A DNA stretch of 64,000 nt, taken from NCBI RefSeq assembly GCF_029892065.1, contig NZ_CP120375.1, positions 124,001 through 188,000 on the forward strand, in the 5' to 3' direction. Below are positions 95-20,668 of this stretch, one piece after another. Each line of letters begins with the position of its first letter. Positions within the stretch are counted from its first letter, which is position 1. The notes beneath the pieces are model-generated. The model was not told the DNA's origin. It worked only from the letters and a program-made list of their open reading frames with translations, and made no database searches. Both the position numbers and the translations under genes were made by a program. Origin of the DNA: Sinorhizobium garamanticum. Lineage in GTDB: Bacteria > Pseudomonadota > Alphaproteobacteria > Rhizobiales > Rhizobiaceae.

Positions 95-1050
95 CATTGT
101 TGCGTCTCAATGCGGTTAGCCGCCGATATCCGATCGGGGCACAAGTCTTCGGACAAAAGAACTTTCTGACCGCAGTCGATGCGGTGTCGCTGGAGGTCCG
201 CAAAGGCCAGACGACCGGCGTCGTTGGCGAATCCGGCTGCGGAAAATCCACTACCGGACGCATTGCGCTGGGTTTGGAGCAAGCCGATGGCGGGCAGGTC
301 CTGTTCGAGGGAATTCCACTGCCGCAGGCTGACACAAAGGATTGGCGTGCGAAGCGGCAGCGCATGCAGCTTGTCTTCCAGGATACCTTGGCAGCGCTCG
401 ACCGGCGAATGACGGTAGGCGATCTGATTGCCGAGCCCTTGATCATCCATCGGATCGGCAAAGCCAGAGATCATGCGCAACGTGTTCTGGAACTTCTCGA
501 AGCCGTCGGTCTCAGCAGGCATCACCAAGCGCTCTATCCGCATCAGCTTTCCGGCGGCCAGCGCCAACGCGTGGTGCTGGCGCGCGCGCTCGCGCCGAAC
601 CCATCGCTTCTGGTTTGCGACGAGCCCGTGTCCGCGCTCGACGTTTCCGTCCAGGCGCAAATCGTCAACCTGCTCATGGACCTTCAGCGCGAACACGGGC
701 TGGGCATTCTCTTCATCAGCCACGACCTGAGGATCGTTCGACATGTCAGCGACCGTATCGTCGTCATGTATCTCGGTCGGGTGGTTGAGGAAGGACGTGC
801 TGACGCCGTCATCGATCGACCGGCTCATCCTTACACGCGGGCGCTCGTGTCGGCTCTGCCGAGGCTTCCAGGTGGCTTCGAGCACTATGTCCCCTTACCC
901 GGCGAACCGCCAAGTCCCGCCGATCGGCCGCAGGGATGTCCTTTCCATCCACGCTGTGCCCTGGCAAAAGACATCTGCCGCAACAGCGAACCGCCTCTCC
1001 TACCAACGGAACCGGAACGGCAGGTTGCTTGCCATCTGGTGACAGACTGA
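91..1050 (+). CDS. Peptide/nickel-type ABC transporter ATP-binding protein (DppF/OppF family)
   Basis: Cytoplasmic ATPase subunit that powers an oligopeptide-class importer. In the 319-residue product I see Walker A (GESGCGKST, about residues 47-55), the ABC signature LSGGQRQR near residue 153, Walker B ending CDEP, and the switch His in ISHD. The C-terminal oligopeptide-binding extension carries the usual Pro-rich stretch and Cys residues (CPFHPRC). The length is typical of DppF. The ATG overlaps the previous gene's stop, and its own TGA overlaps the next gene's ATG (TGATG), so the ATPases and permeases are translationally coupled. The substrate cannot be read from an ATPase. The binding protein gene must lie upstream of the window. 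Confidence 0.93.
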   Translation: MTLLRLNAVSRRYPIGAQVFGQKNFLTAVDAVSLEVRKGQTTGVVGESGCGKSTTGRIALGLEQADGGQVLFEGIPLPQADTKDWRAKRQRMQLVFQDTLAALDRRMTVGDLIAEPLIIHRIGKARDHAQRVLELLEAVGLSRHHQALYPHQLSGGQRQRVVLARALAPNPSLLVCDEPVSALDVSVQAQIVNLLMDLQREHGLGILFISHDLRIVRHVSDRIVVMYLGRVVEEGRADAVIDRPAHPYTRALVSALPRLPGGFEHYVPLPGEPPSPADRPQGCPFHPRCALAKDICRNSEPPLLPTEPERQVACHLVTD

Positions 1051-1991
1051 TGACATCCTTCGTCTATTATATCGCCCCCAAGATCCTGCGGGCTGCCCTC
1101 TCGATCGTAGTGGTCGTCACCCTGACATTCGTCGTGCTGCGTGCCTCGGGCGATCCTGCGCTGCAAATCCTCGGGCCGAGCGCTCGCGCTCCGGATCTCG
1201 AGGCGTTCCGGCAGCGCTGGGGATTGGATCAGCCTCTTTACATCCAGTATGTCCACTATCTCTGGGCCGCCTTGCAGGGCGACTTCGGAAACTCGATGTT
1301 GGGCGGCAGGCCTGCAATGCAGCTGGTCCTTGAGAGAATGCCCCTGACGCTAGCGCTGATGCTCCCTGCGCTCGCACTGAATGTTCTGATAGGCATTCCG
1401 ATCGGCGCTTATGCCGCCATGCACCGCGACAGCTGGATCGACAGGTGCGTGATGATGCTGACAGTGCTTGGCTTCACGGTTCCGAGTTTCGTTCTCGGGC
1501 TACTGTTCATTCTGATCTTTTCGGTGACACTTGGATTGTTTCCATCGGGCGGCGCTGACAAGTGGCAAAGTTTCGTCCTGCCGGTGCTGACGCTTGGCAT
1601 TGGTGGTGCGGCCGTCATCGCCCGCTTCACCCGCAGCGCCATGATCGAGGTCTTATCCCAACTCTATGTAGTGGCTGCCAGCGCCAAGGGCGTTACCTGG
1701 CGCCAGGTCATCCACTATCACGCTTTGCCCAACGCGCTGATTCCCATTCTTACGCTCTTGGGCCTCATGCTGGGTGGGCAAGTGGCCGGAGCAGTGCTTG
1801 TCGAAGCTGTCTTCGGCTGGCCGGGCATCGGCCAGCTTCTCGTGATTTCTGTTGGAAACCGCGATCTGGCTGTCGTGCAGGTCATCCTTCTTCTCGTTGC
1901 GCTGACGATGACCTCCGCGAACCTGATGATGGACCTGCTCTATGGCGTGATTGATCCACGTCTGCGGACAAATCGCTCCGCATCGCACTGA
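1050..1991 (+). CDS. Peptide/nickel-type ABC transporter permease (DppB family)
   Basis: Inner-membrane permease of 313 residues with six hydrophobic segments. The first is an N-terminal helix right after MTSFVYYIAPKIL, followed by the periplasmic loop typical of DppB and the binding-protein-dependent transport domain. The cytoplasmic EAA-like loop (AASAKGVTWRQVIHYHALPNAL) is clear. I start at the ATG at 1050, which overlaps the previous TGA. A longer in-frame reading to 936 only runs back through the ATPase gene. It pairs with the following DppC-type permease. Confidence 0.93.
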   Translation: MTSFVYYIAPKILRAALSIVVVVTLTFVVLRASGDPALQILGPSARAPDLEAFRQRWGLDQPLYIQYVHYLWAALQGDFGNSMLGGRPAMQLVLERMPLTLALMLPALALNVLIGIPIGAYAAMHRDSWIDRCVMMLTVLGFTVPSFVLGLLFILIFSVTLGLFPSGGADKWQSFVLPVLTLGIGGAAVIARFTRSAMIEVLSQLYVVAASAKGVTWRQVIHYHALPNALIPILTLLGLMLGGQVAGAVLVEAVFGWPGIGQLLVISVGNRDLAVVQVILLLVALTMTSANLMMDLLYGVIDPRLRTNRSASH

Positions 1992-2000: not shown

Positions 2001-2834
2001 GTGCAAAAGAAACAAAAAATCGACCCGCCGACGCTCATTGCGGCGCTCTGGCTTTGCCTTATGCTGCTGATCGCGATCGCCGCACCGCTGATTGCGCCAC
2101 ATGACATCACCGCGATGGATCTCCGCCACCGCCTCGATCCGCCTTTCGGTTTCGGCGGAACGGTCTCGCATCTGTTCGGAACCGATGATCTCGGTCGTGA
2201 CGTCGCGTCGCGACTCTACTTCTCAATCCGCACAAGTCTCCTGATTGCCTTCAGCGCAACTCTGATCAGCGTCTTCATCGGAACGGCGATCGGATTTGTC
2301 GCAGCTTATTTCCGCGGTGTTGTGGAGCATTTCCTGCTGCTGCTCATCGACGTTCAGGCCTCGCTTCCGTTTCTTATCGTGGCACTTGCAATGCTGGCCT
2401 TTTTCGGCAATTCGCTCGTGCTGTTCGTCGGGCTGATGGGGCTTTACGGATGGGAACGCAACGCCCGCCTGGCGCGCGGACTGGCACTTGCGGCTGGCGC
2501 TCAAGGATATGCCGGCGCCACCCGGCAGCTCGGCGCGCATCCCTTGCGGATCTACCTTCGCCACATATTGCCGAACAGTGCCGCCACGCTGCTGGTGGCG
2601 GCGACCGTGACCTTTCCGGAGATCGTCCTTGTGGAAAGCGGACTCTCCTTCCTCGGCCTCGGCGTTCAGCCACCTATGACCAGCCTCGGCGTCATGGTGG
2701 GTACCGGTCGCGAATATATCACCCGCGCTTCCTGGATGTTGCTTGCCCCCAGCATTGTCATCGTGGTCACGGCCATGGCCATCAGCGTTCTTGGCGACTC
2801 ACTCCGCGACAAACTCGATCCTACGCTCAGGTAA
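2001..2834 (+). CDS. Peptide/nickel-type ABC transporter permease (DppC family)
   Basis: Second inner-membrane permease of the importer, 277 residues, starting at a GTG preceded by AGGAAG. After an N-terminal membrane helix come the DppC hallmarks: the FGTDDLGRDV motif, five further membrane segments, and the EAA loop (GATRQLGAHPLRIYLRHILPN). It ends with the family-typical GDSLRDKLDP tail. It lies nine bases after the DppB-type gene. Together the genes give a complete translocator minus its binding protein. The position next to a phosphonate cluster invites the idea of phosphonopeptide uptake, but nothing in the permeases shows this. Confidence 0.93.
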   Translation: MQKKQKIDPPTLIAALWLCLMLLIAIAAPLIAPHDITAMDLRHRLDPPFGFGGTVSHLFGTDDLGRDVASRLYFSIRTSLLIAFSATLISVFIGTAIGFVAAYFRGVVEHFLLLLIDVQASLPFLIVALAMLAFFGNSLVLFVGLMGLYGWERNARLARGLALAAGAQGYAGATRQLGAHPLRIYLRHILPNSAATLLVAATVTFPEIVLVESGLSFLGLGVQPPMTSLGVMVGTGREYITRASWMLLAPSIVIVVTAMAISVLGDSLRDKLDPTLR

Positions 2835-3084: not shown

Positions 3085-4800
3085 TCAAGCTGGGGCCCCA
3101 GGCGATCTCGCAAAGGGGATCGTGCAATCGCTTAGATTGCGCCCTAAGATCTTTACCAGTACTTTGTTCTCAGCGGGGGTGCGAACTGCCAGACGCAAAT
3201 AACGATCCGCATCCTTCATTATCTGATAGCCACAATCTCTGACCAGAACGGATTCGCGCACAACAAGGCGGCGCTTCAACGCGACGGCTGAAAGCGAATC
3301 CTCGGGCAACCGGCATAAGACGAAATTTGTCTGTGACGGCACGATCTCCAGTCCCGGGACGGTCCTGAGATCTCGGATGAACTGCTCTCGATCCTCTCGC
3401 AGCAGTTTGAGACTGTTGTCCAGTTCTTTCAGGAATTCGGGCAGGATGAACAGCGCATATTCCGCAATACCATTTATGTTCCACAGTGGCAGCTTCCGCC
3501 GGACGGCAGCGACAAACTCGATGTCGCTGCTCATGAGATAGCCCAGCCGTATTCCGCCCAATCCGAAGACCTTTCCGAGGCTTTTGACCACTATCAAATT
3601 GCCATGGGACGGCACAAGGGTCTCAGCGCTGCTGGCACGACCATCACTGGGAAAATCGATGAAAGACTCGTCAACGACCAGCCGCCGGCCGTGACTTTCG
3701 AGCGCTTTGATCAGCCAAACTATGTCTGCGAAATCGACTAGCCGGCCAGTAGGATTGTTGGGATTGACTACGATTGCAGTGTCAGCATCGGTGGCTACCA
3801 CGAATTCCAAAAAGGCTTTCACGTCGAGGTCAAAAAGGGGCGGGGCGAGAACGAAACTCTTCTTACGCTCCTGTTCGAGCGGCGTCTGAAACCCGGCAAA
3901 TGTCGGCGTCGGAATCGCTATCGTCGGGTTCAAGGTTGCGTAGAGCGCCTGTATAAGGTCCGTCACGCCGTTGCCGACGGCAAGAAAGGCGCTGGGCTGC
4001 GCTGTCATCGCCGCGACGAGCGACGCAATGTCAACTTGTTGAGAAGGATAACATGTCAGCGCGCCTTCGATCCTGTGCGTAAGCCGTTGATAGAAAGCTT
4101 TCGGTGGAAATCGCGTGTTGCATAGCAGCATGTGCTCCGCAATTGGCTTGCGCCAATATCCTCCAACGCTCGTCTCCAGCCGATACAGCAGGTTCTCGTC
4201 GTCGCATCGAAATTCCGCGACGGAGACGTCCACGCCATCGCGAATGTCGAGCAATTCTTCCTTGGTGCCCTCTTTGCTAACTAAGGGCGGGATTTTTGCT
4301 CGAGACAGGCCCCTTGCGAGCGCTTCGAAGATGTGTTGCGGATCGTCACTGATCACAATGTTGTTTTCGGGCAAAAGCCTGCGCAAATCATGGCAAGTTA
4401 GATGATAAACACCTGTTGGCGATTCGGGCCGCCACGCGGTGCCGCGCAGCCCGCGACCCGGCTTTATCTTGGCAAGAATGGAACTATCGAAGAGCGGCGT
4501 CCCCCAGATGAGAAGAGTGTCGTTTTCGTAACGAAGCAGCGTTTCGATAAACCCATCGCCGGATAGTGAACAAGCTATTGCGTCGAACCCGCTGCAAAGC
4601 GCCTCCAGCCTGTCATCGTCGAGTGCATTGGCGCAGACAAGGATTTCCGTAACGCCACTTTTCATGCATGCTGTGGCTAACCGCTCCAAAAGTGGTTGGC
4701 CGCAAATCGGAACCGAAGGCGCGTTATAACTGCCGCTCCAAAGGTGTATTTCCGATCCCCTGAAATCGAGGAAGAAAATCGCTCGCATTGTGCTCGCCAT
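3085..4800 (-). CDS. Nucleotidyltransferase-like / CobD-like PLP enzyme fusion, phosphonate cluster
   Basis: A 571-residue fusion. Residues about 5-225 resemble an NTP-transferase fold (PICGQPLLERLATA and ILVCANAL strands), but the Gly-rich nucleotide loop is degenerate. Residues about 245-565 are a fold-type I PLP domain with the PNNPTG motif near 347-352, Asp in VVDESFIDF, and the lysine in SLGKVFGLGGIRLGY (Lys410). The DESFIDF stretch, the WNINGIAEYAL helix and the ending RYLRLAVRTPAEN resemble CobD (threonine-phosphate decarboxylase) more than ordinary HisC. It is last in the leftward arm of the phosphonate cluster. A CobD-like decarboxylase could turn phosphonoalanine into aminoethylphosphonate; this is inference, and an aminotransferase role remains possible. 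Start chosen at 4800, preceded by AGGGAG, rather than the longer frame to 4899. Confidence 0.75.
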   Translation of the reverse strand: MASTMRAIFFLDFRGSEIHLWSGSYNAPSVPICGQPLLERLATACMKSGVTEILVCANALDDDRLEALCSGFDAIACSLSGDGFIETLLRYENDTLLIWGTPLFDSSILAKIKPGRGLRGTAWRPESPTGVYHLTCHDLRRLLPENNIVISDDPQHIFEALARGLSRAKIPPLVSKEGTKEELLDIRDGVDVSVAEFRCDDENLLYRLETSVGGYWRKPIAEHMLLCNTRFPPKAFYQRLTHRIEGALTCYPSQQVDIASLVAAMTAQPSAFLAVGNGVTDLIQALYATLNPTIAIPTPTFAGFQTPLEQERKKSFVLAPPLFDLDVKAFLEFVVATDADTAIVVNPNNPTGRLVDFADIVWLIKALESHGRRLVVDESFIDFPSDGRASSAETLVPSHGNLIVVKSLGKVFGLGGIRLGYLMSSDIEFVAAVRRKLPLWNINGIAEYALFILPEFLKELDNSLKLLREDREQFIRDLRTVPGLEIVPSQTNFVLCRLPEDSLSAVALKRRLVVRESVLVRDCGYQIMKDADRYLRLAVRTPAENKVLVKILGRNLSDCTIPFARSPGAPA

Positions 4801-5022
4801 CTTCAGACTCCCTTGTGCGACCAAGCCGATGCGTAGAAGCCCTTTGCGCCGCTTGCAGGGCGGCCATCGGCCGGAATGCCCTGGGTGACCAAATGGCACC
4901 TGTGACTCTGCTGAGACATTCGCCCCGACCTCGCACAGATCCTCGGCCGGTCCGATGCTGCCTTCGCCACGCCACGTCTTTTTTTGACAGGCGCGTCCAT
5001 GCCACCGAAGCTCGCAGTTTCA

Positions 5023-6912
5023 TCACGTCAGAACCTCCTTGAAGAAGAGCCCGAGGTTGGCCAGAAGCCAGAATTTCCGGCCGAAGGCATCAGATGGGTT
5101 TACCCGTCCGCTTTCGAACCAGCGCTTTAAGGCATGAAGGTCGAATAGATCACACAGCGGCGAATCTCCTCCAAGAATGAGGTTTCGATAATCCCGTGCT
5201 CCGTCTCCGATTGCCCATTGGCCGAGCGGAAGCGGAAATCCCATCTTCTTGCGGCAAAGAACGGACTGCGGCAGGACGCTGCGATATTCCCTTCGCAGCG
5301 GATATTTTGACACGTCAAGGTGCTCGCTGAAGGACGAAACGGGAGAACTCAGCGCCTGAGCCGGCGCGATGGGCGACTTCCACTTCAGCCGGTCGGACCC
5401 CGGGATGGCCATCGCCGCCGTTACGAGCTGGTGATCGGTGTAGGGGACACGTGCTTCAATGCCAGCAGCCATCGTGGTGTTATCGACCATTTCGAGTAGC
5501 GCCGGCAAATGTGTCGCGACGAAGATATGGGCGATCTTGCTGAAGAAATCTCCAACCGCCTCCGAAAATTGCTGCTCGAAATGACTGCGAAGTTGCATCT
5601 CCTCGGCGCGAAGGTTGCCTCCGATTGTGAGCGAACGGATCTCCTCGATGGGAAAGTAGGTGTACCTGTCCAGGAAAAACTGCAGCTTATCAGCATGACG
5701 TCCCAATTCGAGCCGCCGACGAGCAATTTCTGCCAAGGGAGATGGGAATGCGGTGAGGAATCTGCTTCGCCGATGATCATAGGGCGTTCGAAACAGTCGG
5801 CTATAACCGGCAAAAATCTCATCCGCCCCCTCGCCGGTGAAGACGACTTTATGTTCCTTTGCAACTGCCTTGGCGAGCGTAAACATGGCGATTTCGTTGT
5901 GCATGCCGAGCGGATGTCCTCGCAAACGAACCAGCTCCGCGATCTCCTTGAGGTCCGACGGCCCTCTGATCGGGATGATGCGGTGGGCAAGACCAAAATG
6001 CGTCGCGACCTCTCTGGCATAGCCGGTCTCGTCGTAGTCGGGGCCTTGAACTTTCCCGGTATAGAAGACCGGCTTCTTGCTCGACCGAGTCGAGAGCTCG
6101 TAGGCCAGAATGCTGGAATCAAGCCCTCCGGACAGCAGCGCAGCGACCGGTACGTCAGCGACCAACTGACGCTCGACCGCATTTCCGAGAAGCCACTTCA
6201 CCTCCGACGGACGCGGCCTTGAACGTTCAAGGTGCGCCGGAAGGCTCCACCAACGTTCGCAACTATGTCGACCTCTTCTGATCTCAAGCAGCCTTCCTGG
6301 TTCCAATTTTGATATGCCAGCAAAGAGCGTTCTGGAGCCGACAACGGCCCGGTAGGAGAGAAAGCTCAGTGCTCCGACCAGGTCGGGTTTACGGGTGATT
6401 CCTGGCCAGCGTATGAGTGCGTTAGGCTGCGAGGCAAAGACAAACCCGGCATCGCTATCGGTATAGTAGAGCGGCTTTACGCCGAGGCGATCGCGCGCGA
6501 TGAGAACGCTGGCTGACCTCGGATCGAAGAGGGCGAAGGCGAATATGCCGTCAAGGCGGCTTAGGAACGACTTGCCCCAGGCGAGATAGGCCTTGAGAAG
6601 AACTTCGGTATCCGACTCCGTCGAGAAGCCGTGACCGAGTTGCGCGAGCTCGTATTTCAGTTCGCGGTAATTGTAAATCTCGCCATTGTAGGTGATCACC
6701 ACGCCACTCGCCGCATCGCGAAATGGCTGGTTCGCCCTCGAGTTTAGATCGATAATCGACAATCTTCGATGCGCAAACGCCACCGAACCGTCAATATAAA
6801 TGCCTTTGGCATCCGGCCCGCGGTGAGCCAAAGCGTCGGCGCAATCTTCGACCGTCTCGGCAGAGACCGCTGCACCACCATGTCTGAAGACTATCCCGAA
6901 GATTCCGCACAT
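5023..6912 (-). CDS. asnB: Asparagine synthetase (glutamine-hydrolysing), AsnB family
   Basis: 629 residues with the complete two-domain layout. The N-terminal class II glutamine amidotransferase domain begins MCGIFGIV with the nucleophile Cys2; the RRLSIID and YNGEIYNYREL motifs follow. The C-terminal synthetase domain carries the PP-loop SGGLDSS (261-267) and the GEGADEIFAGY motif. AsnB enzymes activate a carboxylate as the acyl-adenylate and transfer ammonia from glutamine. In biosynthetic clusters they often amidate or form amide bonds in products. Between a methyltransferase and the CobD-like fusion on the same strand, it probably amidates a carboxylate of the phosphonate product rather than serving housekeeping asparagine synthesis. 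The substrate is unknown. Confidence 0.9.
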   Translation of the reverse strand: MCGIFGIVFRHGGAAVSAETVEDCADALAHRGPDAKGIYIDGSVAFAHRRLSIIDLNSRANQPFRDAASGVVITYNGEIYNYRELKYELAQLGHGFSTESDTEVLLKAYLAWGKSFLSRLDGIFAFALFDPRSASVLIARDRLGVKPLYYTDSDAGFVFASQPNALIRWPGITRKPDLVGALSFLSYRAVVGSRTLFAGISKLEPGRLLEIRRGRHSCERWWSLPAHLERSRPRPSEVKWLLGNAVERQLVADVPVAALLSGGLDSSILAYELSTRSSKKPVFYTGKVQGPDYDETGYAREVATHFGLAHRIIPIRGPSDLKEIAELVRLRGHPLGMHNEIAMFTLAKAVAKEHKVVFTGEGADEIFAGYSRLFRTPYDHRRSRFLTAFPSPLAEIARRRLELGRHADKLQFFLDRYTYFPIEEIRSLTIGGNLRAEEMQLRSHFEQQFSEAVGDFFSKIAHIFVATHLPALLEMVDNTTMAAGIEARVPYTDHQLVTAAMAIPGSDRLKWKSPIAPAQALSSPVSSFSEHLDVSKYPLRREYRSVLPQSVLCRKKMGFPLPLGQWAIGDGARDYRNLILGGDSPLCDLFDLHALKRWFESGRVNPSDAFGRKFWLLANLGLFFKEVLT

Positions 6913-6944
6913 CGGCGTAACTCTCGCGCTACGGGGAAAACTCG

Positions 6945-7859
6945 TTACTGCCTCGGCTTTTCGCCGATCATCTGGATGCAGCCGTCACCAAACCAGAAAC
7001 GCGCCAGCGGGTGGTCATAATAGCGGTACATGGGAGCGAGAAAGCGCCGCAGATTGTGGAAATCGCGGGTATACCGCGATATCCTACGGACATTTTCGAG
7101 ACCGGATTCGGCATACCAACCTCTGATCTGCATCTCTGTGAAATTGAAGTCGTGATATGTCGGTGCCTGGAGACGGTCCCGTATCGTCACGAACAGATCA
7201 TCGTCGAAAAGGCTCCGGAAAAACTCGTTTTCGTTCGGCAGATATTCGGCTTCTTCGCGGTCCTTGGTATCCAGAAGCCAGTCGACGGCCTGGCGCGCTG
7301 TGGCCGCGCTGAGATTGTCGACGGAGCGGCGAAATTGATCGTCGCTTTGATAGAGTTCGCGTAAATGATTGATGCACCGGTAGAGGACACCATTGGCCGT
7401 ACCCATGATGGTCAGGAAGAAATTGCCTCCCGGGCGCGTGACACGCACGAGCTCTTGGAATCCTTTTTGGGGGTCGCTGGTATGCGGGAGGACACCGGCG
7501 CAATGAACGAAATCGAAACTCGTGTCGTCGAACGGCAAGTCGAGGACGCTCCCGGCGACAAGCACTGAGCGCGCGCCAAAGCGGCCGAGCCGCTTGCGCG
7601 CACAGTCCATCCATGCATCGCCCAATTCAAGCGATGTCACGCTGCGAGCTCCCTTGTTGAGGAATGCGTAAGACGCATTGGCGTTTGATCCACATCCCGC
7701 ATCCAGGATGTCGAGACCGCGAAAGCCTCCCGATGGCAGACCGAAATAGTCATCACCAATGAGGGATGTTAACCTGTCAAAGATGTGATCGTCATCCTCC
7801 TGCTGGCGCTGGTGGCAGTCGAAGACGGCACGGGTCTCTGTTTCGAAGGCGCTTTCCAT
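6945..7859 (-). CDS. SAM-dependent methyltransferase, class I
   Basis: 304 residues with a Rossmann methyltransferase core. Motif I is LDAGCGSN (about residues 50-57), an acidic residue ends strand 2 (LELGD), the GSVLDLPF motif follows, and then VHCAGVLPHT and LVRVTRPGG. The C-terminal third (about 190-304) is not part of the core and includes TYHDFNFTEMQIRGWY, a segment also seen in other family-11-type methyltransferases that includes substrate-facing elements. It lies between the CDP-alcohol phosphotransferase (17 bases upstream) and asnB (32 bases downstream) on the same strand, so it is part of the leftward phosphonate operon. Likely O- or N-methylation of the product; the site is not predictable. 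Confidence 0.85.
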   Translation of the reverse strand: MESAFETETRAVFDCHQRQQEDDDHIFDRLTSLIGDDYFGLPSGGFRGLDILDAGCGSNANASYAFLNKGARSVTSLELGDAWMDCARKRLGRFGARSVLVAGSVLDLPFDDTSFDFVHCAGVLPHTSDPQKGFQELVRVTRPGGNFFLTIMGTANGVLYRCINHLRELYQSDDQFRRSVDNLSAATARQAVDWLLDTKDREEAEYLPNENEFFRSLFDDDLFVTIRDRLQAPTYHDFNFTEMQIRGWYAESGLENVRRISRYTRDFHNLRRFLAPMYRYYDHPLARFWFGDGCIQMIGEKPRQ

Positions 7860-7876
7860 GGCTTCCTCCCGATTGA

Positions 7877-8488
7877 TTAGGGTGCGAATTCGCCTGCGAG
7901 CAAGGCGATAGAACCGGCAGTGGAAAGCGTCAGATTAGCCAGACGCAAAGCGGTACCTGTGCCGGGAAATTTGAAACTGGAAAGATGTAATATGGACAGA
8001 AGGAATGCCGCGCCAATCACAATGCCGCCGAGGCGGCCAATGACCAAATAGCGATTCGCTGCAAACAAAATGGCCAGCACGAACAGATCGTTGTTCAGCG
8101 GAAGTCCTCTCCCGTATCCGTCCACATCGAGGCGGAAGACCGAGAAATAGCTGAGACGAAGCGCCGCCGATAGCATCAGACAGACGGCCGCGAGAAAGGC
8201 CAAAGCCGAGAAGGCGTTGAACGACAATATCACCACGGCAGGAAAGACGGCAGCATAGACTAGGTCCGCAAATCCATCGAAGGCGGCCCCGATCTGGGCT
8301 GTCACTGCGGATCGGTTGGGCAAGCTCTTCGCGATCATGCCGTCCAAATCATCGGCGAGGAGCGCCCATAGGGCAAAACAGATCCCGATTTCATAACACC
8401 CCACCAAGGCGAGATAGATTGCTGTCGTCGATAGGACGAGCCCGAGAGCAGTGATAGCATTCGCTGGGTCGTAGAGATAACGTATCAT
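7877..8488 (-). CDS. CDP-alcohol phosphatidyltransferase family membrane enzyme
   Basis: 203 residues, mostly membrane helices. The CDP-alcohol phosphotransferase signature is recognisable around DDLDGMIAK, followed by GAAFDGFAD, giving the metal-binding aspartates. Two departures stand out: Lys replaces the usual Arg, and the spacer before the Gly is 12 residues instead of the usual 8. Further on, RLSYF and GRGLPLNND recall phosphatidylserine synthases. Such enzymes displace CMP from a CDP- or CMP-activated donor. Next to a PntC-like cytidylyltransferase it is the natural candidate to move an activated phosphonate onto an alcohol or lipid (inference). Its ATG overlaps the stop of the broken upstream frame (ATGA), showing former coupling to that gene. 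Confidence 0.82.
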   Translation of the reverse strand: MIRYLYDPANAITALGLVLSTTAIYLALVGCYEIGICFALWALLADDLDGMIAKSLPNRSAVTAQIGAAFDGFADLVYAAVFPAVVILSFNAFSALAFLAAVCLMLSAALRLSYFSVFRLDVDGYGRGLPLNNDLFVLAILFAANRYLVIGRLGGIVIGAAFLLSILHLSSFKFPGTGTALRLANLTLSTAGSIALLAGEFAP

Positions 8489-8931
8489 GGCCTATAGCCC
8501 TGCGCCGGAAGGAACGATCCGGCGTAATACGGCTTGAAGGACTTGAGAGGCCGCGCAAACTGAAACATGCATGTCAGGCGACGGGTGGCAGAGGTCTTGG
8601 GACCTCGCCTGCCGACGAGATGCGGTAGAAGCTCCTCAGTGTGGTCTTTATCGCACCGGAACTCATGAGATCGTCGAGTACTGCAACGATTGTCGGACTC
8701 AAAGCTGCACTGCAGAACCGCATCAAATCGAAAGCCCCGAAGAGAGTCGCCCCGCTCGTTTCGAGGTTGCCGGCGCTCGGTTTCAGCCTCGCTCGACAGG
8801 ATGAGGATGTCATCTGAAAGGATGCGTTCGCGGAGGTTTGCGAGGGAAGGTCTCACCGGCAAGTCACCAGCATACAGCGGTAATTTGCCATCTACTCTCA
8901 AAGGTAATGACTTTGCTTTATTCATTGTCAC
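8485..8931 (-). pseudogene. Decayed copy of a PntC-like nucleotidyltransferase
   Basis: A 148-codon frame is open here but makes no sensible protein throughout. In the neighbouring frame (about 8574-8813) lies a clear relative of the intact cytidylyltransferase at 13191-13964: RLKPSAGNLETSGATLF and FDLMRFCSAALSPTIV align with that protein's RLNQTAASLLSDGPSLF and MNLMRFSSIALSMTIV. The N-terminal nucleotide loop and the centre are missing and the reading frame is shifted. The gene was once first in the leftward operon, with ATGA overlap to the phosphotransferase. The working copy is now in the rightward arm, so the function may have been relocated or duplicated before this one decayed. Confidence 0.72.
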
Positions 8932-9481
8932 GGCTCCCTCTTAAAGATCAACTTCAATGGTCAGCAGAAAAATTTCAAGCCACATCAGAATGTATCTATA
9001 AATATATCTCGGTATACCAGCCCCGACCACGATATGCTGGATATATTGTCTAATGTATCCGCCGAAATATATCTCGCCCTGATCTTTGATCGGCTACTCC
9101 CTTTCGCGTGGTCTAAATAGTTCGTATCTATCGCAGGTCGCACTTTATCCTTGAACCCACCGAAGCCCGCCGAGTCATCTTCCACCAGCTGCAAGGAATT
9201 TGCGTGACCGCCAACGAGATGGCGCGTGAGCGCAGAGCTAAGCTGCGCGAGCTCGCCCGGTTCTCCCATGTGCCAATCGGTGATCCAGCGGATCATGCTG
9301 ACGGCCCTGCCAGACCACATAAAACGGAGCCTGAGCCGTAGCGCACCTTAGATGCACCATGCTACGCTCGATTTGGGAGCATCACACTGTTCTCGGTTTA
9401 TCCTGCTTCTTTGGTGAAAATCTCATCCGCCTTTTCGTTGCTAAGTCAGGTGACCGGTGAAGGACTTCAGGAAGGAAAAGC
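8932..9481. promoter_or_regulatory. Divergent regulatory region of the phosphonate cluster with two AAATATATCT sites
   Basis: No gene is supportable in this 550-base stretch between the leftward operon and the rightward GntR gene. Its left part is strikingly A+T-rich. AAATATATCT occurs at 9000-9009, followed by CGGTATACC with the palindrome GGTATACC at 9011-9018, and again at 9065-9074, followed by CGCC. The same 10-mer appears once more upstream of pepM (10896-10905). I found no further copies while reading, but did not search exhaustively. The sites are plausible operators for the adjacent GntR-family regulator. Confidence 0.5.
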
Positions 9482-10198
9482 TTGGAGATGTGGCTCTGTG
9501 AAAAATTGCCCCAGTGTCGTGGAATAGAAATGCCGAGTTTAGCTTGTGGGCCCACGATGCGCGGAAAAGCCGACCGAGCCTACGATGCGGTCCTGCGGTT
9601 TCTCTATAGCTGCACTCACATGCCAGGGCAGCATCTTAATGAAAAAGAGCTAGCCTCCAAGCTCAACATCGGCCGGACTCCAGTTCGCGAAGCACTGATC
9701 CGGCTCGCTGCAGAAGGAAGGATCGTATCCGTTCCTCGAGAAGGCTTCTTCACGCGGCCATTGCTCGAGTGGGCTCTGCTGGATTCCTACATCATAGCCC
9801 GCCAAATTCTCACCTTTGCACTAACGCGTGTACAGCCCCAAGCATCCCACCACTCTTTGTCCTCCGATGTGTCATCTCCGTCGGTACTCGCTCTCCAGGC
9901 GGAAACGATATTCGCGGTGATAGCGCAAGGGTCGTCAAGCTGCGAGCTTTGCCAGATCATCGAGAAATTTTGTTTTGGCTCCCATCCTCTGCGCATGGAA
10001 ATAGCCGCATCAGAGCTCTCTCCTGGTTTCGAGGCGAGTCTCGCAAGGCTCACAGACGTGATGCCTCAGTTCGGCAACACGCCGGACGTGGTGAAATCCG
10101 CATTGATGAACCACTTAGATTTTGAGGAAGGAGCGATACCCGGGGTTCTACAAGAGTTCAGCAGACGACGGCTGGAAAGCTTCCCGTTAATCACGTAG
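9482..10198 (+). CDS. GntR-family transcriptional regulator, candidate controller of the phosphonate genes
   Basis: 238 residues. About residues 27-90 form a winged helix-turn-helix of the GntR/FadR type: LNEKELASKLNIGRTPVREALIRLAAEG contains the recognition helix with the family's TPVREAL signature. A helical ligand-binding domain follows and is less conserved. Start chosen at the TTG at 9482, six bases after AGGAAGG; an ATG at 9488 is the alternative. It is transcribed divergently from the leftward phosphonate operon and points toward pepM. Repeated AAATATATCT motifs flank it on both sides, the usual picture for a local regulator. The ligand is unknown; a cluster intermediate is likely but not shown. 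Confidence 0.82.
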   Translation: MEMWLCEKLPQCRGIEMPSLACGPTMRGKADRAYDAVLRFLYSCTHMPGQHLNEKELASKLNIGRTPVREALIRLAAEGRIVSVPREGFFTRPLLEWALLDSYIIARQILTFALTRVQPQASHHSLSSDVSSPSVLALQAETIFAVIAQGSSSCELCQIIEKFCFGSHPLRMEIAASELSPGFEASLARLTDVMPQFGNTPDVVKSALMNHLDFEEGAIPGVLQEFSRRRLESFPLIT

Positions 10199-10224
10199 AC
10201 GTATGAGCGGACTGCGACGCCGTC

Positions 10225-10690
10225 GTCGCTCCACGTACCTCTGTTGATGCCTGGTTGATGGGCGGTGTTGGCGCGAGCGTTGTCTTTCGTGGTGGCGCGA
10301 CTGACGTCCTCGGCGGGATTGACGTCGAGCATCCAACGCAAGCGGTTTTCGATCTCCCACCGGGAGCGGCTGGTGGTGAGCGCGCTCGGGCTGATTGCAG
10401 CAGATACCATAAACAGGCGCGACGCCCAGCATGGCCTCGTCGCGTAGGCTGGTGAGGCTGCCATCAGCGCGGTTGGTGCGGCGATGACCTCGGTCAGGCG
10501 CTCGATTCGGCCGGCTTCGCTTGTGCCACAACCGCCTTTTCCGGCCGCTACCAAATGATGGCAGTTGCCCTTTAGCGCGAGTATATAGTCCCGCGCGGTT
10601 CGCAGAAAGCCTCAGCCGCGGGTATGGCAGTGAGTGGCGTGACGATCTTGGCGTTCACAGCAAGCATACCCCCTCACTGATGATGGAGTT
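10225..10690 (-). mobile_element. ISAs1-family transposase remnant
   Basis: On the minus strand, residues resembling the 3' third of ISAs1-type transposases survive in shifted frames: RDYILALKGN near 10570-10600, VSAAISPSAL, then SRWEIENRLRWMLDV and ED at roughly 10290-10380. This matches the family's HW-IEN-LHW-LDV-ED block, with the last catalytic acid still visible. The rest, including the first two catalytic acids, is missing, and no inverted repeats are evident. It sits between the GntR gene and pepM, so an insertion landed inside the cluster and then decayed. Confidence 0.65.
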
Positions 10691-10895
10691 CGGAATTCAA
10701 AAGCGCCTGCTCATCGGCATACGGACCATTATCGGCCATCGCGTGCTCTGTCTTGTACAACATGCGGCGGTAAGTTGGAGGCCTGGATTAGACGGTAGAA
10801 ACCTCTTGGAGATTGAGAACAACAAACGGATAGCCTGGCGCTGGCAAAAGGTGTCTTTGCGATGCGGGTCGTTGGAATTGTTTTCGCATTGTGAC

Positions 10896-10912
10896 AAATA
10901 TATCTGCCGGTA
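10896..10912 (+). promoter_or_regulatory. AAATATATCT operator candidate upstream of pepM
   Basis: AAATATATCT followed by GCCGGTA, about 90 bases before the pepM start. It matches the two copies in the divergent region at 9000-9009 and 9065-9074. The copy at 9000 is also followed by a GGTA. The shared word upstream of both arms suggests one regulator, most simply the GntR protein encoded between them. Confidence 0.5.
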
Positions 10913-10993
10913 CGTTTGTTAAAATAATCAATGGCTTACTTGCCTTTTTCTGAGATGGGGCCCACTCTCCAGTCTCAGGAAGGAAGCATAACA

Positions 10994-11917
10994 ATGAACA
11001 GGGCAACTTCATTTCTGGCCAGCGGCGAAGTGTCGTCACCGACCATCTCATCGGCAATTCTTCGTGAACTCATTCTTTCGAGTGATCTCACATTTCTGAT
11101 GGAAGCGCACGACGGGCTGTCGGCAGCTATCGCTGAGCGCGCGGGGTTCAAGGGCCTGTGGGCTTCTGGCCTTTCTATCTCCTCGGTCCTTGGCTATCGG
11201 GATGCCAGTGAAGCAAGTTGGACGCAGATCGTCGACATAGTCGAACGCATCGTTGATGCAACCAATATTCCGGTTCTCGTCGACGGCGACAGCGGTTTTG
11301 GTAATTTCAATAACGCTCGCATTGTCGCACGCAAGCTTGAACAACGCGGTGCCGCCGGGCTGTGCCTTGAGGACAAGCAGTTCCCAAAAACGAACTCCTT
11401 CGTCGGCGACAGACATGCGTTAGCCGATATCGATGAATTTTCCGGACGCCTCAAGGCTGTAAAGGACACCACCGGCCCCGGTTTCGTCCTCGTCGCCCGC
11501 ATCGAGGCGATGATCGCCGGTCACGGTATCGACGAGGCGATTGTTCGAGCCGACGCATATGCGGAAGCCGGTGCCGACGCCATCCTCATCCACTCCCGCA
11601 AGCCGGTTGCTGACGAGATCCTGGCCTTTGCCAAGGAATGGAACAACAAGTTGCCAGTCGTGATAGTGCCGACGAAATACTACAAGACGCCGGTCTCAGC
11701 CTATCGCGATGCCAGAATTTCGACCGTCATCTGGGCTAACCATACGATGCGAGCGGCCATTGCCGGCATGCGACACATCTGCGACCGAATTCATGCGGAA
11801 CAAAGCGTTGCGGCTATTGAGGACGAAATTGCCGGCTTTGATGAGCTGTTCAGGCTGATGGCCTATGACGAGCTGGCTAAGGCGGAAGAACAGTATCTGC
11901 CTAAACAAACAGCGTAG
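10994..11917 (+). CDS. pepM: Phosphoenolpyruvate mutase
   Basis: 307 residues of the isocitrate lyase/PEP mutase superfamily. The product rearranges PEP to phosphonopyruvate, forming the C-P bond that opens nearly all phosphonate pathways. The diagnostic PepM motif EDKQFPKTNSF is intact at residues 126-136, which separates it from lyases and hydrolases of the superfamily. The metal-binding DGDSGFG lies at 97-103. Start chosen at 10994, just after AGGAAGG; an upstream in-frame ATG lacks such a site. It heads a three-gene run with an aminotransferase and a cytidylyltransferase. Because the equilibrium favours PEP, a downstream step must pull the reaction. No thiamine-dependent phosphonopyruvate decarboxylase is present in the window, so the aminotransferase next door probably does so. 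Confidence 0.95.
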   Translation: MNRATSFLASGEVSSPTISSAILRELILSSDLTFLMEAHDGLSAAIAERAGFKGLWASGLSISSVLGYRDASEASWTQIVDIVERIVDATNIPVLVDGDSGFGNFNNARIVARKLEQRGAAGLCLEDKQFPKTNSFVGDRHALADIDEFSGRLKAVKDTTGPGFVLVARIEAMIAGHGIDEAIVRADAYAEAGADAILIHSRKPVADEILAFAKEWNNKLPVVIVPTKYYKTPVSAYRDARISTVIWANHTMRAAIAGMRHICDRIHAEQSVAAIEDEIAGFDELFRLMAYDELAKAEEQYLPKQTA

Positions 11918-11964
11918 CCGCCGAAGGGCGTGAACCCGCAGAGCGGTAGTGGTGGGGGGTGCAC

Positions 11965-13155
11965 ATGCTTGCGCAACGGGCAAACCTGTTTAGTTCATCG
12001 GGGACGGCCGCGGCACGCGCGGCAGCAAAAGCAGCCGCCGATGCCGGCATGGAAATCATCGATCTCACCGCCGGAGAAATATGGAGCAACCTTGCGCCTG
12101 TCATTCGTGATGGCGCGATCGAGGCCATCAATAAGGGCATCAACCGTTACACCGAAACGATCGGCACTATGGAGCTGCGCGAGGAGCTGGCAAGGAAGAT
12201 TTCGCTCGATACTGACCAGATCTGGAAGGCCGAAGAGATAGCTGTGACGTCCGGCGCCAAGCAGGCTTTGTTCAACGCCGCGATGGTGCTCCTGAACCCC
12301 GGCGACGCGGTGATCATCCCGGCGCCCTATTGGACGACGTTTCCGGCGCAGGTGCTGATTGCCGGCGGCACCCCAGTCTTCGTCGATACGCGCACAAGCG
12401 GCTATGTGCCTCGCGTTGTGGATATCAAGGCAGCGGTAACGGATCGGACGCGAGCTATTGTCATCAACACGCCCAACAATCCCACAGGCGCCGTTTATGA
12501 CGTCCCGACACTGCGCGGCATCGCCGATCTCGCCGTCAAAAGGAATCTCTGGATCATTTTCGACGAATGCTACGGCGACTTCGTGCATGGGCACCACACG
12601 CATCACCCGATCGCCTCGATAGTTCCAGAGGTGCGCTCGCGTACCCTGATCGTCAACGGGTTCAGCAAATCGCTTGCTCTAACCGGCTGGCGGATCGGCT
12701 ACCTTGCGGGTCCGAAAGAGGTGATCAATGCCGTTAAAGCATTTCAGTCGCACACGACTTCCAACCCCAATGTGATCGCGCAGCACGCGGTGCTCGCCCA
12801 CTTGCAACGCGGGGATGGAGCCTATGAAAGCAAGCTGCGGTCACAGCTCGCCAGTGCCAGGCAGATGGGCCTTGACGTCCTTTCCTCACTGACGCGCGTC
12901 CCTGTGCCGAAAGCCGCAGGCGGCTTCTATTTCTATCTCGATCTTTCACGTCTGCTGCAGTCGGTATCCGGAAACGGCGGCCGGACAACAGCCGATGATA
13001 TAGTCGATTCGTTGCTCTCGGAAGCCGGCGTCGCAGCTGTTTCGGGTACCACATTCGGTGATCCTACCGGTCTTCGTCTCTCTTACGGGATTCCACCCGT
13101 AAGGCTTCGGATTGGCTTGAGCAGGCTTGTCCAGGTTCTCAACGCTTGGCGATGA
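11965..13155 (+). CDS. Class I/II aminotransferase, probable phosphonopyruvate transaminase
   Basis: 396 residues of the aspartate aminotransferase fold: NTPNNPTG near 168-175, FDECYGDF near 199-206, and the PLP lysine in NGFSKSLALTGWRIGYLAG (Lys235). The C-terminus is complete (RLSYGIPP then a terminal helix). The ATG at 11965 follows a G-rich Shine-Dalgarno (GGTGGGGGG); a GTG at 11959 is possible. It lies 47 bases after pepM and overlaps the untranslated leader of the next gene. With no decarboxylase present, amination of phosphonopyruvate to phosphonoalanine is the natural role, and it would pull the PEP mutase equilibrium. Activity on another 2-oxo acid cannot be excluded from sequence. 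Confidence 0.88.
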   Translation: MLAQRANLFSSSGTAAARAAAKAAADAGMEIIDLTAGEIWSNLAPVIRDGAIEAINKGINRYTETIGTMELREELARKISLDTDQIWKAEEIAVTSGAKQALFNAAMVLLNPGDAVIIPAPYWTTFPAQVLIAGGTPVFVDTRTSGYVPRVVDIKAAVTDRTRAIVINTPNNPTGAVYDVPTLRGIADLAVKRNLWIIFDECYGDFVHGHHTHHPIASIVPEVRSRTLIVNGFSKSLALTGWRIGYLAGPKEVINAVKAFQSHTTSNPNVIAQHAVLAHLQRGDGAYESKLRSQLASARQMGLDVLSSLTRVPVPKAAGGFYFYLDLSRLLQSVSGNGGRTTADDIVDSLLSEAGVAAVSGTTFGDPTGLRLSYGIPPVRLRIGLSRLVQVLNAWR

Positions 13156-13190
13156 CACCCGTCACTTGTGCAACGAAGAAGGGGAATGCG

Positions 13191-13964
13191 ATGCCCATTA
13201 CTGGACCGAAAAAGGCGGTCATTCTCGCCGCCGGTTTGGGCTCACGTCTGCGTCCGCTGACCGATCTGCAACCGAAACCGCTTGTCAGGGTCAACGGCAC
13301 GCCGATCCTCCACAATGCCTTGCGCAACCTGGAGGCGGTCGGCGTCCAGGAGGTGACGATCGTCGTCGGCTACCGCAAAGATGCCATTCAGTACGCCTGC
13401 GGCAGGCGCTTCGGCGGACTCGAGATCAACTATGTCGAGTCATCCCTCTTCGAGCGTACGGGCAGCGCCTATTCCCTTTGGCTGGCGCGGGACACTTTGC
13501 TGTCCGGCGACTGCTATGTTCTCGAAGGCGACGTTTTCTTCGAAGAGGATGCGCTGCGCTGCCTGATGATGGCCAATGCGCTGAATGCCGCGGCTGTCGC
13601 ACCTTTCGACCCTTCGATGGAAGGCTCAGGCGTTCTGGTCGCTAAGGACGGCCTAATATTCGAAGTCCGATTGAACCAAACGGCGGCCAGCCTCCTATCG
13701 GACGGGCCTTCGCTATTCAAGACGATGAATCTCATGCGCTTTTCCAGCATTGCGCTGAGCATGACGATCGTTCCGGCCCTGGACGAGCTCATCGGCTCCG
13801 GCGCGTCGAAAGCCTACACGGAGGAAGTGCTTGCTTATCTCATCGAGAAGCGCGGGCTGCAACTCGCCGCTGCACGCTGCGACGACCAAAGGTGGTACGA
13901 GATCGACAGTGTAGGTGATCTGCGAGTCGCCGAACGCATCTTCGGCACGCAAGCACTTGGATAG
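13191..13964 (+). CDS. PntC-like sugar/phosphonate nucleotidyltransferase
   Basis: 257 residues of the NTP-transferase family. The nucleotide loop ILAAGLGSRLRPLT is at 11-24, with the following Pro-Lys-Pro at 28-30, a VLEGDVFFEE metal-site segment, and DQRWYEIDSVGDL near the C-terminus, as in choline-phosphate and phosphonate cytidylyltransferases. Start chosen at 13191 behind GAAGGGGA; the longer frame overlaps the aminotransferase gene. In this neighbourhood the expected reaction is CTP plus a phosphonate (for example aminoethylphosphonate) giving CMP-phosphonate and diphosphate, the activation step before a CDP-alcohol-type transferase. A decayed relative lies at 8485-8931. Phosphocholine-like substrates are an alternative. 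Confidence 0.82.
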   Translation: MPITGPKKAVILAAGLGSRLRPLTDLQPKPLVRVNGTPILHNALRNLEAVGVQEVTIVVGYRKDAIQYACGRRFGGLEINYVESSLFERTGSAYSLWLARDTLLSGDCYVLEGDVFFEEDALRCLMMANALNAAAVAPFDPSMEGSGVLVAKDGLIFEVRLNQTAASLLSDGPSLFKTMNLMRFSSIALSMTIVPALDELIGSGASKAYTEEVLAYLIEKRGLQLAAARCDDQRWYEIDSVGDLRVAERIFGTQALG

Positions 13965-14254: not shown

Positions 14255-16084
14255 CTAGCTTCTTTCTCTTGGCTGTAACGGTAGACCGTACGCTCGCATT
14301 TTGTTGTATAGGGTCTTTCGAGATATCCCGAGATATCGCGCGGCTTCACCGCGGCGAAAGCGATGGCGCTGAAGCGCATCGAGGATCCATTCCCGCTCAT
14401 CCCCCGGATGCGGATGTGGCGCGTCCGCGTTCACGTCGCCGAGCGGCGGCAAGTGCTCGGCCTTGATCCAGTCGCCTTCGCAGCGGATGGCGGCCGTTTC
14501 GAGCACGGATCTGAGCTCGCGGATATTTTCTGGCCACCCATAGGTCATCAGAACTCGGTATGCCGAGTGGTCCACCGACAGCTTCCGGCTGCGTCGATCC
14601 TTTCGGAGCGCTTGTAGGAAGTGTTCGCATAGGAGCGGAAGGTCTTCAAGGCGATCGCGCAGATTGGGAAGAAAGACGTGACCCGGCGCGAGACGCGACT
14701 CTAGCGAGGGTATCAGCAGCCCGCTTGAGCCCAACTCAGAGAGCGGCCGCGTCGATGTCAGGATCAGGCGGCCTTCAAACCGCCCTCTCTCATTGTCGCC
14801 CAGGCGCCTGTAAGCCCCCGTCTCAATGACTTCTACCAGACGTTCCTGGGCGTCGACGTGCAGGCATTCGACGTTCTCGATCAGCAGGGTTGCTTTGCTA
14901 TGGTACTGTAGCAGCCCAAGCACCTTCCTCCCGCCTTCGCTCGGGGCGAAGCCAAAAAGCGATTCGCCACTTGCGTCTTCGGAGCTGATGAGCTTGCTGC
15001 CGGGACGTCTGGCAGCTTCATGAATGCCCCTTGCCAGAAGCTTTTTGCCGGTTCCGGCTTCCCCGGTAATCAGAACCGGTAGAGCAGAAGCGGCAAGTTT
15101 TTCGATCCGTTGCTTGATTTGCTGGATGGAAGGTGACCGGCCGACGATCGAGTATTCGCGCTGCACATGCTCGAGCTGGCGCTCCAGTTCATCAATTCGC
15201 TTTTGCAAGGTGCCGACTGATTTGAAAGCCGATGTAATCTGCTCCATCGAAGCTTCGAGTGGCACCCGATCGATGGTGGAGCCTCCGATGTATCCGTCTG
15301 CCTTGGACAGTGCGGATACCTCGTACATTTGATCGGGGCTGACGATAGGGCCGCCCTCCAGGACACAAAGAGTGCCCTGTGAGATGGCCCGTATCTGACG
15401 GAAAATGATCTTCGCATACTCAGCCGCTTGCCTCAGGCTGAGCTCTGTGCGGCTTCCGACAGTCCCTCCGACGTTCCAGCCGAGATTGAGATTTATGATG
15501 TCCACGCCGGCGGTCGCTGCCTGCTGAGCTTCGGCCACAGTTCTAACATAGGCGAGGGTCGCCATATTTCTTCTCTGAGCGGCGCGAAGCATTTCAAGCT
15601 CACGCTGGAATCCCAGCCCTGCTCGCTCGATATCGCCCCGAAACCGTCCATCAAGGAAAATGGAGGTGGGGAAGTTTACAATTCCCCCGAAACCCGCATC
15701 CGCAATTCTTTCCAGTTCAGCTTCTATCGAACAGCGGGGATCGAAAGCACTGGCGCCGAAAAAAACAGGAACTTTGGCGAAAGGCAGGATTTCTGATTTG
15801 GCAAAATCCAGGACAAAGTCATTGCACTTGCGCAATGCGAGCAGGGAAAAGATAGAAGGGGCGCCCATGCTACGCAAACGCCCCGCATTCAGAGCGAGGA
15901 TAAAGTCTGCGCCGCCGCGCGAGGCTGCCTGGGCGGCCATTCCTGTGCCGATCGCGGCGCCGACGAGAGTCGTGTTTGGCTTGCCAAGCGTAGCTTTCAG
16001 AGTCGCGACAATCTCCGCTCTCGCGTGCGCGGGAGCGAAAAATTCAGGACGATGGACCCCAAGATGAACGATCGGATCAGCCAT
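14255..16084 (-). CDS. Transcriptional regulator: TIM-barrel sensor + AAA+ + Fis-type HTH, lacking GAFTGA
   Basis: 609 residues. Residues about 5-285 form a TIM barrel of the family formerly called 'TIM-barrel signal transduction' (PEP hydrolase-like), the same family as the enzyme at 17882-18739 (shared GTGMAAQ, GGIVNFPT and GGPIVSP motifs). A short coiled coil (about 291-311) leads to an AAA+ module with a slightly altered Walker A, GEAGTGKK (341-348), and a Walker B region LLIENVE. A Fis-type HTH ends the protein (RGEAARYLGISRKTLYNKM). The GAFTGA loop that contacts sigma-54 is absent: after ESLFGF the text passes directly to SEGGRKVLGL. It therefore probably acts on sigma-70 promoters, as TyrR does. 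Last gene of the leftward catabolic operon. Confidence 0.88.
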   Translation of the reverse strand: MADPIVHLGVHRPEFFAPAHARAEIVATLKATLGKPNTTLVGAAIGTGMAAQAASRGGADFILALNAGRLRSMGAPSIFSLLALRKCNDFVLDFAKSEILPFAKVPVFFGASAFDPRCSIEAELERIADAGFGGIVNFPTSIFLDGRFRGDIERAGLGFQRELEMLRAAQRRNMATLAYVRTVAEAQQAATAGVDIINLNLGWNVGGTVGSRTELSLRQAAEYAKIIFRQIRAISQGTLCVLEGGPIVSPDQMYEVSALSKADGYIGGSTIDRVPLEASMEQITSAFKSVGTLQKRIDELERQLEHVQREYSIVGRSPSIQQIKQRIEKLAASALPVLITGEAGTGKKLLARGIHEAARRPGSKLISSEDASGESLFGFAPSEGGRKVLGLLQYHSKATLLIENVECLHVDAQERLVEVIETGAYRRLGDNERGRFEGRLILTSTRPLSELGSSGLLIPSLESRLAPGHVFLPNLRDRLEDLPLLCEHFLQALRKDRRSRKLSVDHSAYRVLMTYGWPENIRELRSVLETAAIRCEGDWIKAEHLPPLGDVNADAPHPHPGDEREWILDALQRHRFRRGEAARYLGISRKTLYNKMRAYGLPLQPRERS

Positions 16085-16106
16085 TGTGAGGCTAACCTAC
16101 ATCTTA

Positions 16107-17192: not shown

Positions 17193-17232
17193 GGATGTCA
17201 CCTCCAGATAGGCAGGACTTGGCGCGCACGGA

Positions 17233-17862: not shown

Positions 17863-17881
17863 CTATTTCCCCTTCCTGTGG

Positions 17882-20660: not shown

Positions 20661-20668
20661 GCGGGCGT

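Follow-up and report, generated by a model that had tools for sequence, protein, structure and literature searches.

A divergent gene cluster built around phosphoenolpyruvate mutase (PepM) is located at positions 3085-13964 of the window, a stretch of 64,000 nucleotides from Sinorhizobium garamanticum that corresponds to C3:124001-188000 in a three-contig genome of 6.83 Mb. Since nifH sits on the same 623-kb contig C3, this contig is the symbiosis plasmid. From the gene content we infer a very probable entry into phosphonate metabolism without phosphonopyruvate decarboxylase (Ppd), leading from phosphoenolpyruvate (PEP) over phosphonopyruvate to phosphonoalanine, and likely continuing to an ester of a phosphonate activated with cytidine monophosphate (CMP). 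Whether the product is a small soluble phosphonate ester, made in nodules and reclaimed by kin bacteria through a neighbouring reuptake and dismantling module in the manner of a rhizopine, is judged as about evenly balanced.

In the proposed pathway, PepM would convert PEP to phosphonopyruvate, which an aspartate-aminotransferase-like enzyme would trap as L-phosphonoalanine, thereby replacing Ppd. In clusters with a CobD-like enzyme, phosphonoalanine (or a derivative of it) may undergo decarboxylation. A cytidylyltransferase (CT) would activate the phosphonate with CMP, a CDP-alcohol phosphotransferase would pass it on to an alcohol, and an AsnB-like ligase and a methyltransferase, both variable between clusters, would decorate the product. 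An AccA-like importer would take the ester back up, a phosphodiesterase would cut it, and C-P lyase (encoded on plasmid C2 here, adjoining in some relatives) would release phosphate. Synthesis and use would mirror each other, with PepM facing C-P lyase, CT and phosphotransferase facing phosphodiesterase and, in some relatives, AsnB facing a peptidase.

The features of the cluster are as follows:
3085-4800 (open reading frame from 4899), minus strand: CobD-like pyridoxal phosphate (PLP) enzyme fused at its N-terminus to a degenerate nucleotidyltransferase-like part (family profile, sequence and structure searches)
5023-6912, minus strand: asparagine-synthetase-like amide ligase, AsnB-like (family profiles)
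6945-7859, minus strand: S-adenosylmethionine-dependent methyltransferase (family profiles)
7877-8488, minus strand: CDP-alcohol phosphotransferase (pssA-like profile, 45 bits, and motif DDLDGMIAK...GAAFDGFAD)
9200-9298, no strand: remnant matching sequences of which some are annotated as IS30-family transposase (sequence match)
9482-10198, plus strand: GntR-family regulator in the divergent gap (family profiles)
10994-11917 (open reading frame from 10931), plus strand: PepM (family profile and motif)
11959-13155, plus strand: class I aminotransferase, likely converting phosphonopyruvate to phosphonoalanine (class I/II profile and the PnaA precedent, PMC11867202)
13191-13964 (open reading frame from 13146), plus strand: LicC/PntC-like CT (homology and intact AAGxGSRL...PK signature)

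All genes that an earlier note on this DNA had named were found in place, without internal stops and with the families claimed. PepM scored 341.6 bits with TIGR02320 (cut-off 319.55) and displays the motif EDKQFPKTNS. The AsnB-like protein scored 403.7 bits with the asparagine synthetase family TIGR01536. The phosphotransferase gave no Pfam match in the profile search. The CT is of the LicC/PntC type, with an intact nucleotidyltransferase signature and LicC as nearest homologue (1jyk, 4e-16; PntC 6pd1 at 2e-7). Its candidate substrates are aminoethylphosphonate (AEP) and phosphonoalanine. The CMP activation and transfer put forward by the earlier note are reasonable; the transfer to a lipid or glycan is retained as a rival reading only.

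Likely entry into phosphonate metabolism without Ppd

A Ppd gene elsewhere in the genome would speak against the route and was searched for. None scored over the cut-off in the whole genome, the best match reaching 34.1 bits (cut-off 312.5), and 14 control genomes also gave matches at the loose threshold of this search. A hidden Ppd was thus rejected.

The neighbourhood of pepM was compared by tblastn using the proteins of the window together with Ppd and AEPT of Mycetohabitans. Twenty-six rhizobial or agrobacterial loci were considered, namely the window, all 15 such loci from one PepM search and 10 hand-picked plasmid matches, next to 66 comparison loci (65 others of the same search and Mycetohabitans). 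Compared stretches extended mostly 10-15 kb on each side of PepM. Of the 26 loci, 24 carry the CT, 21 the phosphotransferase and 20 the aminotransferase; the CobD-like and the AsnB-like genes occur in 9 each and the methyltransferase in 4, and neither Ppd nor class V AEPT was detected in any. In contrast, Ppd was present in 64 and AEPT in 61 of the 66 other loci, and the aminotransferase in none; distant CTs and phosphotransferases are undercounted in this group because thresholds were set with the proteins of the window. The classic Ppd-driven arrangement is thus missing from the cluster, the genome and the related loci, and the Ppd-less PepM cluster read by the earlier note is supported and recurs in rhizobia.

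Phylogenetic analysis of 99 PepM rows placed the rhizobial type in one clade of 32 rows (support 100/99; own sequence counted twice), none of which has Ppd. Twenty-five of these rows have the aminotransferase, four only the CT, and three neither of them in the stretch. Second, distant PepM-like copies in two genomes (G351 and G380) lie outside of this clade. The exception within the family is G008 (locus L141), with Ppd and AEPT present and a PepM only 56% identical.

A precedent for the transamination of PepM-made phosphonopyruvate to phosphonoalanine is given by PnaA of Streptomyces (PMC11867202). The phosphonoalamide pathway (PnaD-PnaA) likewise combines PepM with an aspartate-aminotransferase-type partner in place of Ppd; the present cluster differs from it by its CT, phosphotransferase and AsnB, and no ATP-grasp ligase was among the families found for 3085-13964. 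Gene content across loci and the PnaA precedent support the Ppd-free route well, and transamination, as the earlier note had proposed, appears as the likely forward step. The Pnt pathway with PntC-AEPT of Treponema also displays a LicC-like CT beside PepM, and its PLP enzyme likewise carries a fused CT-like part (PMC6697681). It differs in that Ppd and class V AEPT are lacking from the 26 loci, and in that the fused CT part is degenerate here and the stand-alone CT intact.

A PepM-aminotransferase-CT core was also observed on agrobacterial plasmids (L106 on pTi_CFBP1905, L009 and L187), one of them named as Ti plasmid. The phosphotransferase is larger there, and the cores are accompanied by genes for ornithine cyclodeaminase, a cysteine synthase family member and a ParB-like protein as well as by a different importer. 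We take the cyclodeaminase, cysteine synthase and ParB-like genes as a set similar to SbnA/SbnB/SbnI, and the product is perhaps a diaminopropionate-linked phosphonate.

A putative uptake and hydrolysis module and its linkage to PepM

The gene set extends to the left of the window into the neighbouring stretch L007 (C3:104001-124000), which was out of view for the earlier note. From left to right, the genes in L007 and the importer genes that follow in the window are:
C3:115738-116655, minus strand: 2-hydroxyacid dehydrogenase
C3:116646-117446, minus strand: formyltransferase
C3:117563-118804: type I phosphodiesterase/NPP (PF01663)
C3:120466-121272: DeoR regulator
C3:121495-123057: AccA-like substrate-binding protein
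window 1-94, plus strand: 3' end of the first ABC ATPase, which begins at L007:19063 (C3:123063; match to ABC transporter ATP-binding protein, end estimated from a Mesorhizobium homologue)
window 91-1050, plus strand: second ATPase of the AccA-type ABC importer, of the oligo_HPY type (PF00005, PF08352; gene order shared with L006, L110 and L184)
window 1020-1991 (open reading frame from 936), plus strand: ABC permease (PF00528; 81% to the L006 permease)
window 2001-2834, plus strand: ABC permease (PF00528, PF12911; 82% to the L006 permease)

The nearest solved homologue of the binding protein is AccA (1e-82; next family 1e-29), which contacts the phosphate of its ligand via Asn54, Ser419, Tyr375 and Tyr376 (PMC4526662). 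Tyr375, Tyr376 and Ser419 are all kept in the protein encoded here. They are exact in 12 of 14 AccA-like proteins of the compared loci (K84 excluded), the other two having Trp at position 375, and all three occur together in none of six generic binding proteins, three of which are near-copies. At the position of Asn54, an asparagine was obtained in one alignment and not in another, and conservation of this contact is not claimed. The binding protein of L128 (G373) was rejected as AccA-like, being of the generic type. The pyranose contacts Asn284, Thr430 and Glu434 of AccA are replaced by Trp, Met and Ile, respectively, so that agrocinopine itself is an unlikely ligand. As phosphate contacts are kept while sugar contacts differ, the ligand is probably another organophosphorus ester.

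The module shares with the agrocinopine/agrocin 84 uptake system (accA-accF, accR) the binding protein family, an opp-type transporter, a DeoR-type regulator and a phosphodiester hydrolase, and its gene content is of the same kind as in the acc operon of K84. The hydrolase here is of the type I phosphodiesterase/NPP family, whereas K84 has gdpD, and the DeoR regulator is only 25-28% identical to AccR of K84. Besides the altered pyranose contacts, the link to PepM and, in some relatives, to C-P lyase distinguishes the module from the agrocinopine system.

The linkage was further analysed in 394 genomes of the family, 12 of which were counted as PepM genomes (E 1e-80 or better). In six of them (G000, G064, G341, G344, G351 and G380), PepM and an AccA-like protein are no more than 20 kb apart. 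The chance of such linkage is about 3e-13 when calculated from the roughly 120 hits among those listed, and 2e-7 if three hits (the maximum scored per genome) are assumed in every genome; these odds are rough, as placement was taken as uniform, kinship was ignored and the test was chosen after the linkage was seen. The phosphodiesterase was detected in five of the 394 genomes, four of them PepM genomes, at 4-16 kb from PepM (p 2.5e-6, kinship ignored). Neither the AccA-like binding protein nor the phosphodiesterase was found in 779 kb of other C3 and C2 DNA, which gave one permease-like match of 192 bits.

The core occurs together with the importer and an annotated alkaline-phosphatase-family protein in S. 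fredii CCBAU 83666, Mesorhizobium 131-3-5, S. meliloti AK83, M270 and AK57 (binding protein annotated as two pieces), M. loti 582 (hydrolase without match to the phosphodiesterase of the window in tblastn) and Rhizobium CCGE531. The module is directly flanked by C-P lyase genes in CCBAU 83666, M270 and G341 (L004, L109 and L130), and peptidase genes lie in or beside it in AK83, CCGE531 and AK57. On pMLa, importer, phosphodiesterase and phn genes are located on the same plasmid as the pepM cluster, roughly 150 kb apart.

To the right of the cluster, window positions 14255-24984 encode a PEP-hydrolase-like/sigma54-activator fusion, a Gfo/Idh oxidoreductase, a cupin, a second PEP-hydrolase-like protein, a UPF0261 (Tm-1-like) protein and a sugar-type ABC transporter. 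In Rhizobium CCGE531 (L229), genes annotated alike are found at a distance of about 12 kb from its PepM core. Further on, positions 38683-42794 are of low GC content (down to 43%) and encode a radical SAM protein and a protein of 886 amino acids with two glycosyltransferase domains.

The CobD-like enzyme and alternative products

In the earlier note, the step from phosphonoalanine to AEP was proposed to be a decarboxylation by the CobD-like enzyme. Among the nearest solved folds of this enzyme are CobD and SMUL_1544 (search mainly with residues 209-563), phospho-amino-acid decarboxylases with which it has the fold and the PLP site in common; in the same search, CobD shares its rank with a chain that is annotated as histidinol-phosphate aminotransferase. 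It differs from CobD by a score of 174.9 bits with TIGR01140, under the cut-off of 290.55, and no cobamide genes accompany its gene in this cluster. The histidine preceding the GG motif is present in four CobD-like relatives from loci lacking PepM and replaced in the PepM-linked ones; two further copies from PepM-less loci also lack it. An active cytidylyltransferase in the N-terminal part of the fusion is unlikely because its nucleotidyltransferase signature is lost.

The CobD-like gene is missing from 17 of the 26 loci (200 bits, in the stretch compared), among which the aminotransferase is kept in 12, the CT in 15 and the phosphotransferase in 12. As the CobD-like gene is often missing where the CT is kept, the CT must often act on a substrate other than AEP, unless another decarboxylase was missed. 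CobD-like relatives also adjoin a CDP-alcohol phosphotransferase where no PepM is present in the stretch read. The enzyme was therefore rejected as an essential AEP maker in general, with only 9 of 26 loci having it, and kept as a candidate for this one. The fold and the histidine replacement speak for the earlier proposal, the absence of the gene from most loci and the PepM-less relatives against it, and activity on phosphonoalanine in this cluster is suggested only tentatively. Compared with phosphoserine, phosphonoalanine is shorter by one atom, so that the term 'close isostere' applied to the pair by the earlier note is loose.

On the M. mediterraneum R31 plasmid (L190), a GHMP kinase, a CT, a phosphotransferase, the CobD-like fusion and an AccA-like importer occur with no PepM in the stretch read. 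This set is perhaps a phosphate version of the pathway. A gene some 5 kb away carries a RolB-family annotation. Plasmid pNGR234a of strain NGR234 (L012) also encodes a CobD-like fusion, and the 21 kb read there contain no PepM; the fusion is possibly y4wE, a gene associated with a nod box and with indole acetic acid.

Three other products were considered. AEP made by the CobD-like enzyme could be activated with CMP and attached to a cell-surface lipid or glycan. This is fairly unlikely in view of the distribution of the gene; its decarboxylation step is compatible with a soluble ester, and the two readings are not exclusive. Next, the cluster could make a secreted phosphonate antibiotic or competition factor, with importer and phosphodiesterase serving self-resistance or recapture. 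Phosphonate natural products are often antimicrobial (PMC11867202, PMC12871164), and agrocin 84, an antibiotic, is also imported by AccA (PMC4526662). However, no dedicated exporter was recognised by family profiles within 3085-13964, the linked transporter should import because it has a periplasmic binding protein, and the C-P lyase linkage in some relatives points to nutrient use, which makes this reading unlikely. Finally, the bacterium could build a phosphonolipid or a phosphorus store for its own use, next to an unrelated importer, which is very unlikely: the phosphotransferase is weakly PssA-like and many PepM-core loci lack the AccA-like module in the stretch compared, but binding protein and phosphodiesterase are linked to PepM above background.

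Nodule expression and a possible rhizopine parallel

Rhizopine systems follow a make-and-use logic on the symbiotic replicon. The proposal of a soluble, reclaimed phosphonate ester draws here on the symbiosis island of M. loti R7A, whose genes were matched to this cluster by gene names. In R7A bacteroids, fusions to pepM (msi327), aatA (msi326) and asnB (msi323) were reported with 827, 2456 and 862 units (nifH 855), compared to <20 units in broth, and with 7.7, 16 and 22 units, respectively, in a nifA2 mutant (PMC3538637). Mutants in the three genes were Fix+ and fully effective (PMC3538637, Sullivan 2013). Nodule-specific, nifA2-dependent expression and dispensability for fixation make up the likeness to the rhizopine genes (mos/moc) of S. 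meliloti. The present system differs by its predicted phosphonate route in place of an inositol derivative. The view of the earlier note that this gene set is not known to have been described in a rhizobium calls for correction: R7A pepM, aatA and asnB had been mutated and found induced in nodules, although the word 'phosphonate' does not occur in the main text of PMC3538637.

A NifA site with a -24/-12 (sigma54) site was identified upstream of pepM in seven Mesorhizobium loci, six of them from one lineage; the same site as in L006 is present in G064 (L133:410). As background, such pairs occurred 14 times in 779 kb of own plasmids, never in 1.26 Mb of non-rhizobial loci and once in 0.94 Mb of shuffled sequence. 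Good sigma54 sites, each with a NifA site upstream, were also noted at window positions 34184 (minus), 37219 (minus) and 49344 (plus). The genes that they face encode an epimerase, a HAD hydrolase/PRTase pair and an omptin-family protein.

In the divergent gap of the window, a different motif, AAATATATCTS, was found. All three copies in the window (0.01 expected) lie there:
9000-9075, plus strand: two copies of AAATATATCTC (9000-9010 and 9065-9075), upstream of the minus-strand arm
10896-10906, plus strand: third copy, 98 bp upstream of the pepM start
S. fredii (L004) and S. numidicum (L005) share the sequence AAATATATCT at the pepM copy.

Several observations weigh against the rhizopine-like interpretation. 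Upstream of pepM, no NifA/sigma54 site was found in the lineage of the window, so that nodule expression is extrapolated here. Scans, also made window-wide, found no nod-box or FixK site for this pepM, and control by any of the three was rejected. For R7A, the authors saw no NifA promoter for pepM, judged direct activation highly unlikely and proposed metabolic or oxygen effects (PMC3538637). Six of the 12 PepM genomes (G008, G009, G147, G150, G257 and G373) have no AccA-like protein within 20 kb, G008 being of the Ppd type and the G009 contig measuring only 16 kb. Genome-wide co-occurrence is weak, with an AccA-like protein in 94 of 394 genomes (loose threshold) and in seven of the 12 PepM genomes (p 0.01). 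In the compared stretches of the 26 loci, an AccA-like protein was detected in five and the phosphodiesterase in three (those of the window lie just outside and are uncounted), and 16 loci lack both an AccA-like protein and an opp-type permease (150 bits). Agrobacterial clusters carry a different importer, and the C-P lyase (PhnJ) of S. garamanticum is located on another replicon, C2.

Extended to the family, symbiosis plasmids and islands and some agrobacterial plasmids may, as a tentative generalisation, encode phosphonate rhizopines or opines by paired genes for making, importing and degrading phosphonate esters. In the one library searched, no paper joining opine, phosphoenolpyruvate mutase and plasmid was found; the early-branch-point inventory of Li and Horsman (2022) may list this gene set. 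Searches joining phosphonate with rhizopine or with agrocinopine gave nothing judged to be on this system, by titles apart from PMC4526662.

If true, carriers alone would recover the carbon, nitrogen and phosphorus invested in the compound inside the plant, and nodule bacteria would own a private phosphorus and nitrogen currency. There would be a purpose to expressing pepM and aatA so strongly, and in a nifA2-dependent way, in nodules of M. loti; the 2013 account, as far as its passages on these genes go, gave no product or role for them. Opine and rhizopine chemistry would reach C-P bonds, and alphaproteobacteria would have a Ppd-free phosphonate branch. The finding would also bear on phosphorus exchange in symbiosis and would offer genes for favouring chosen inoculant strains.

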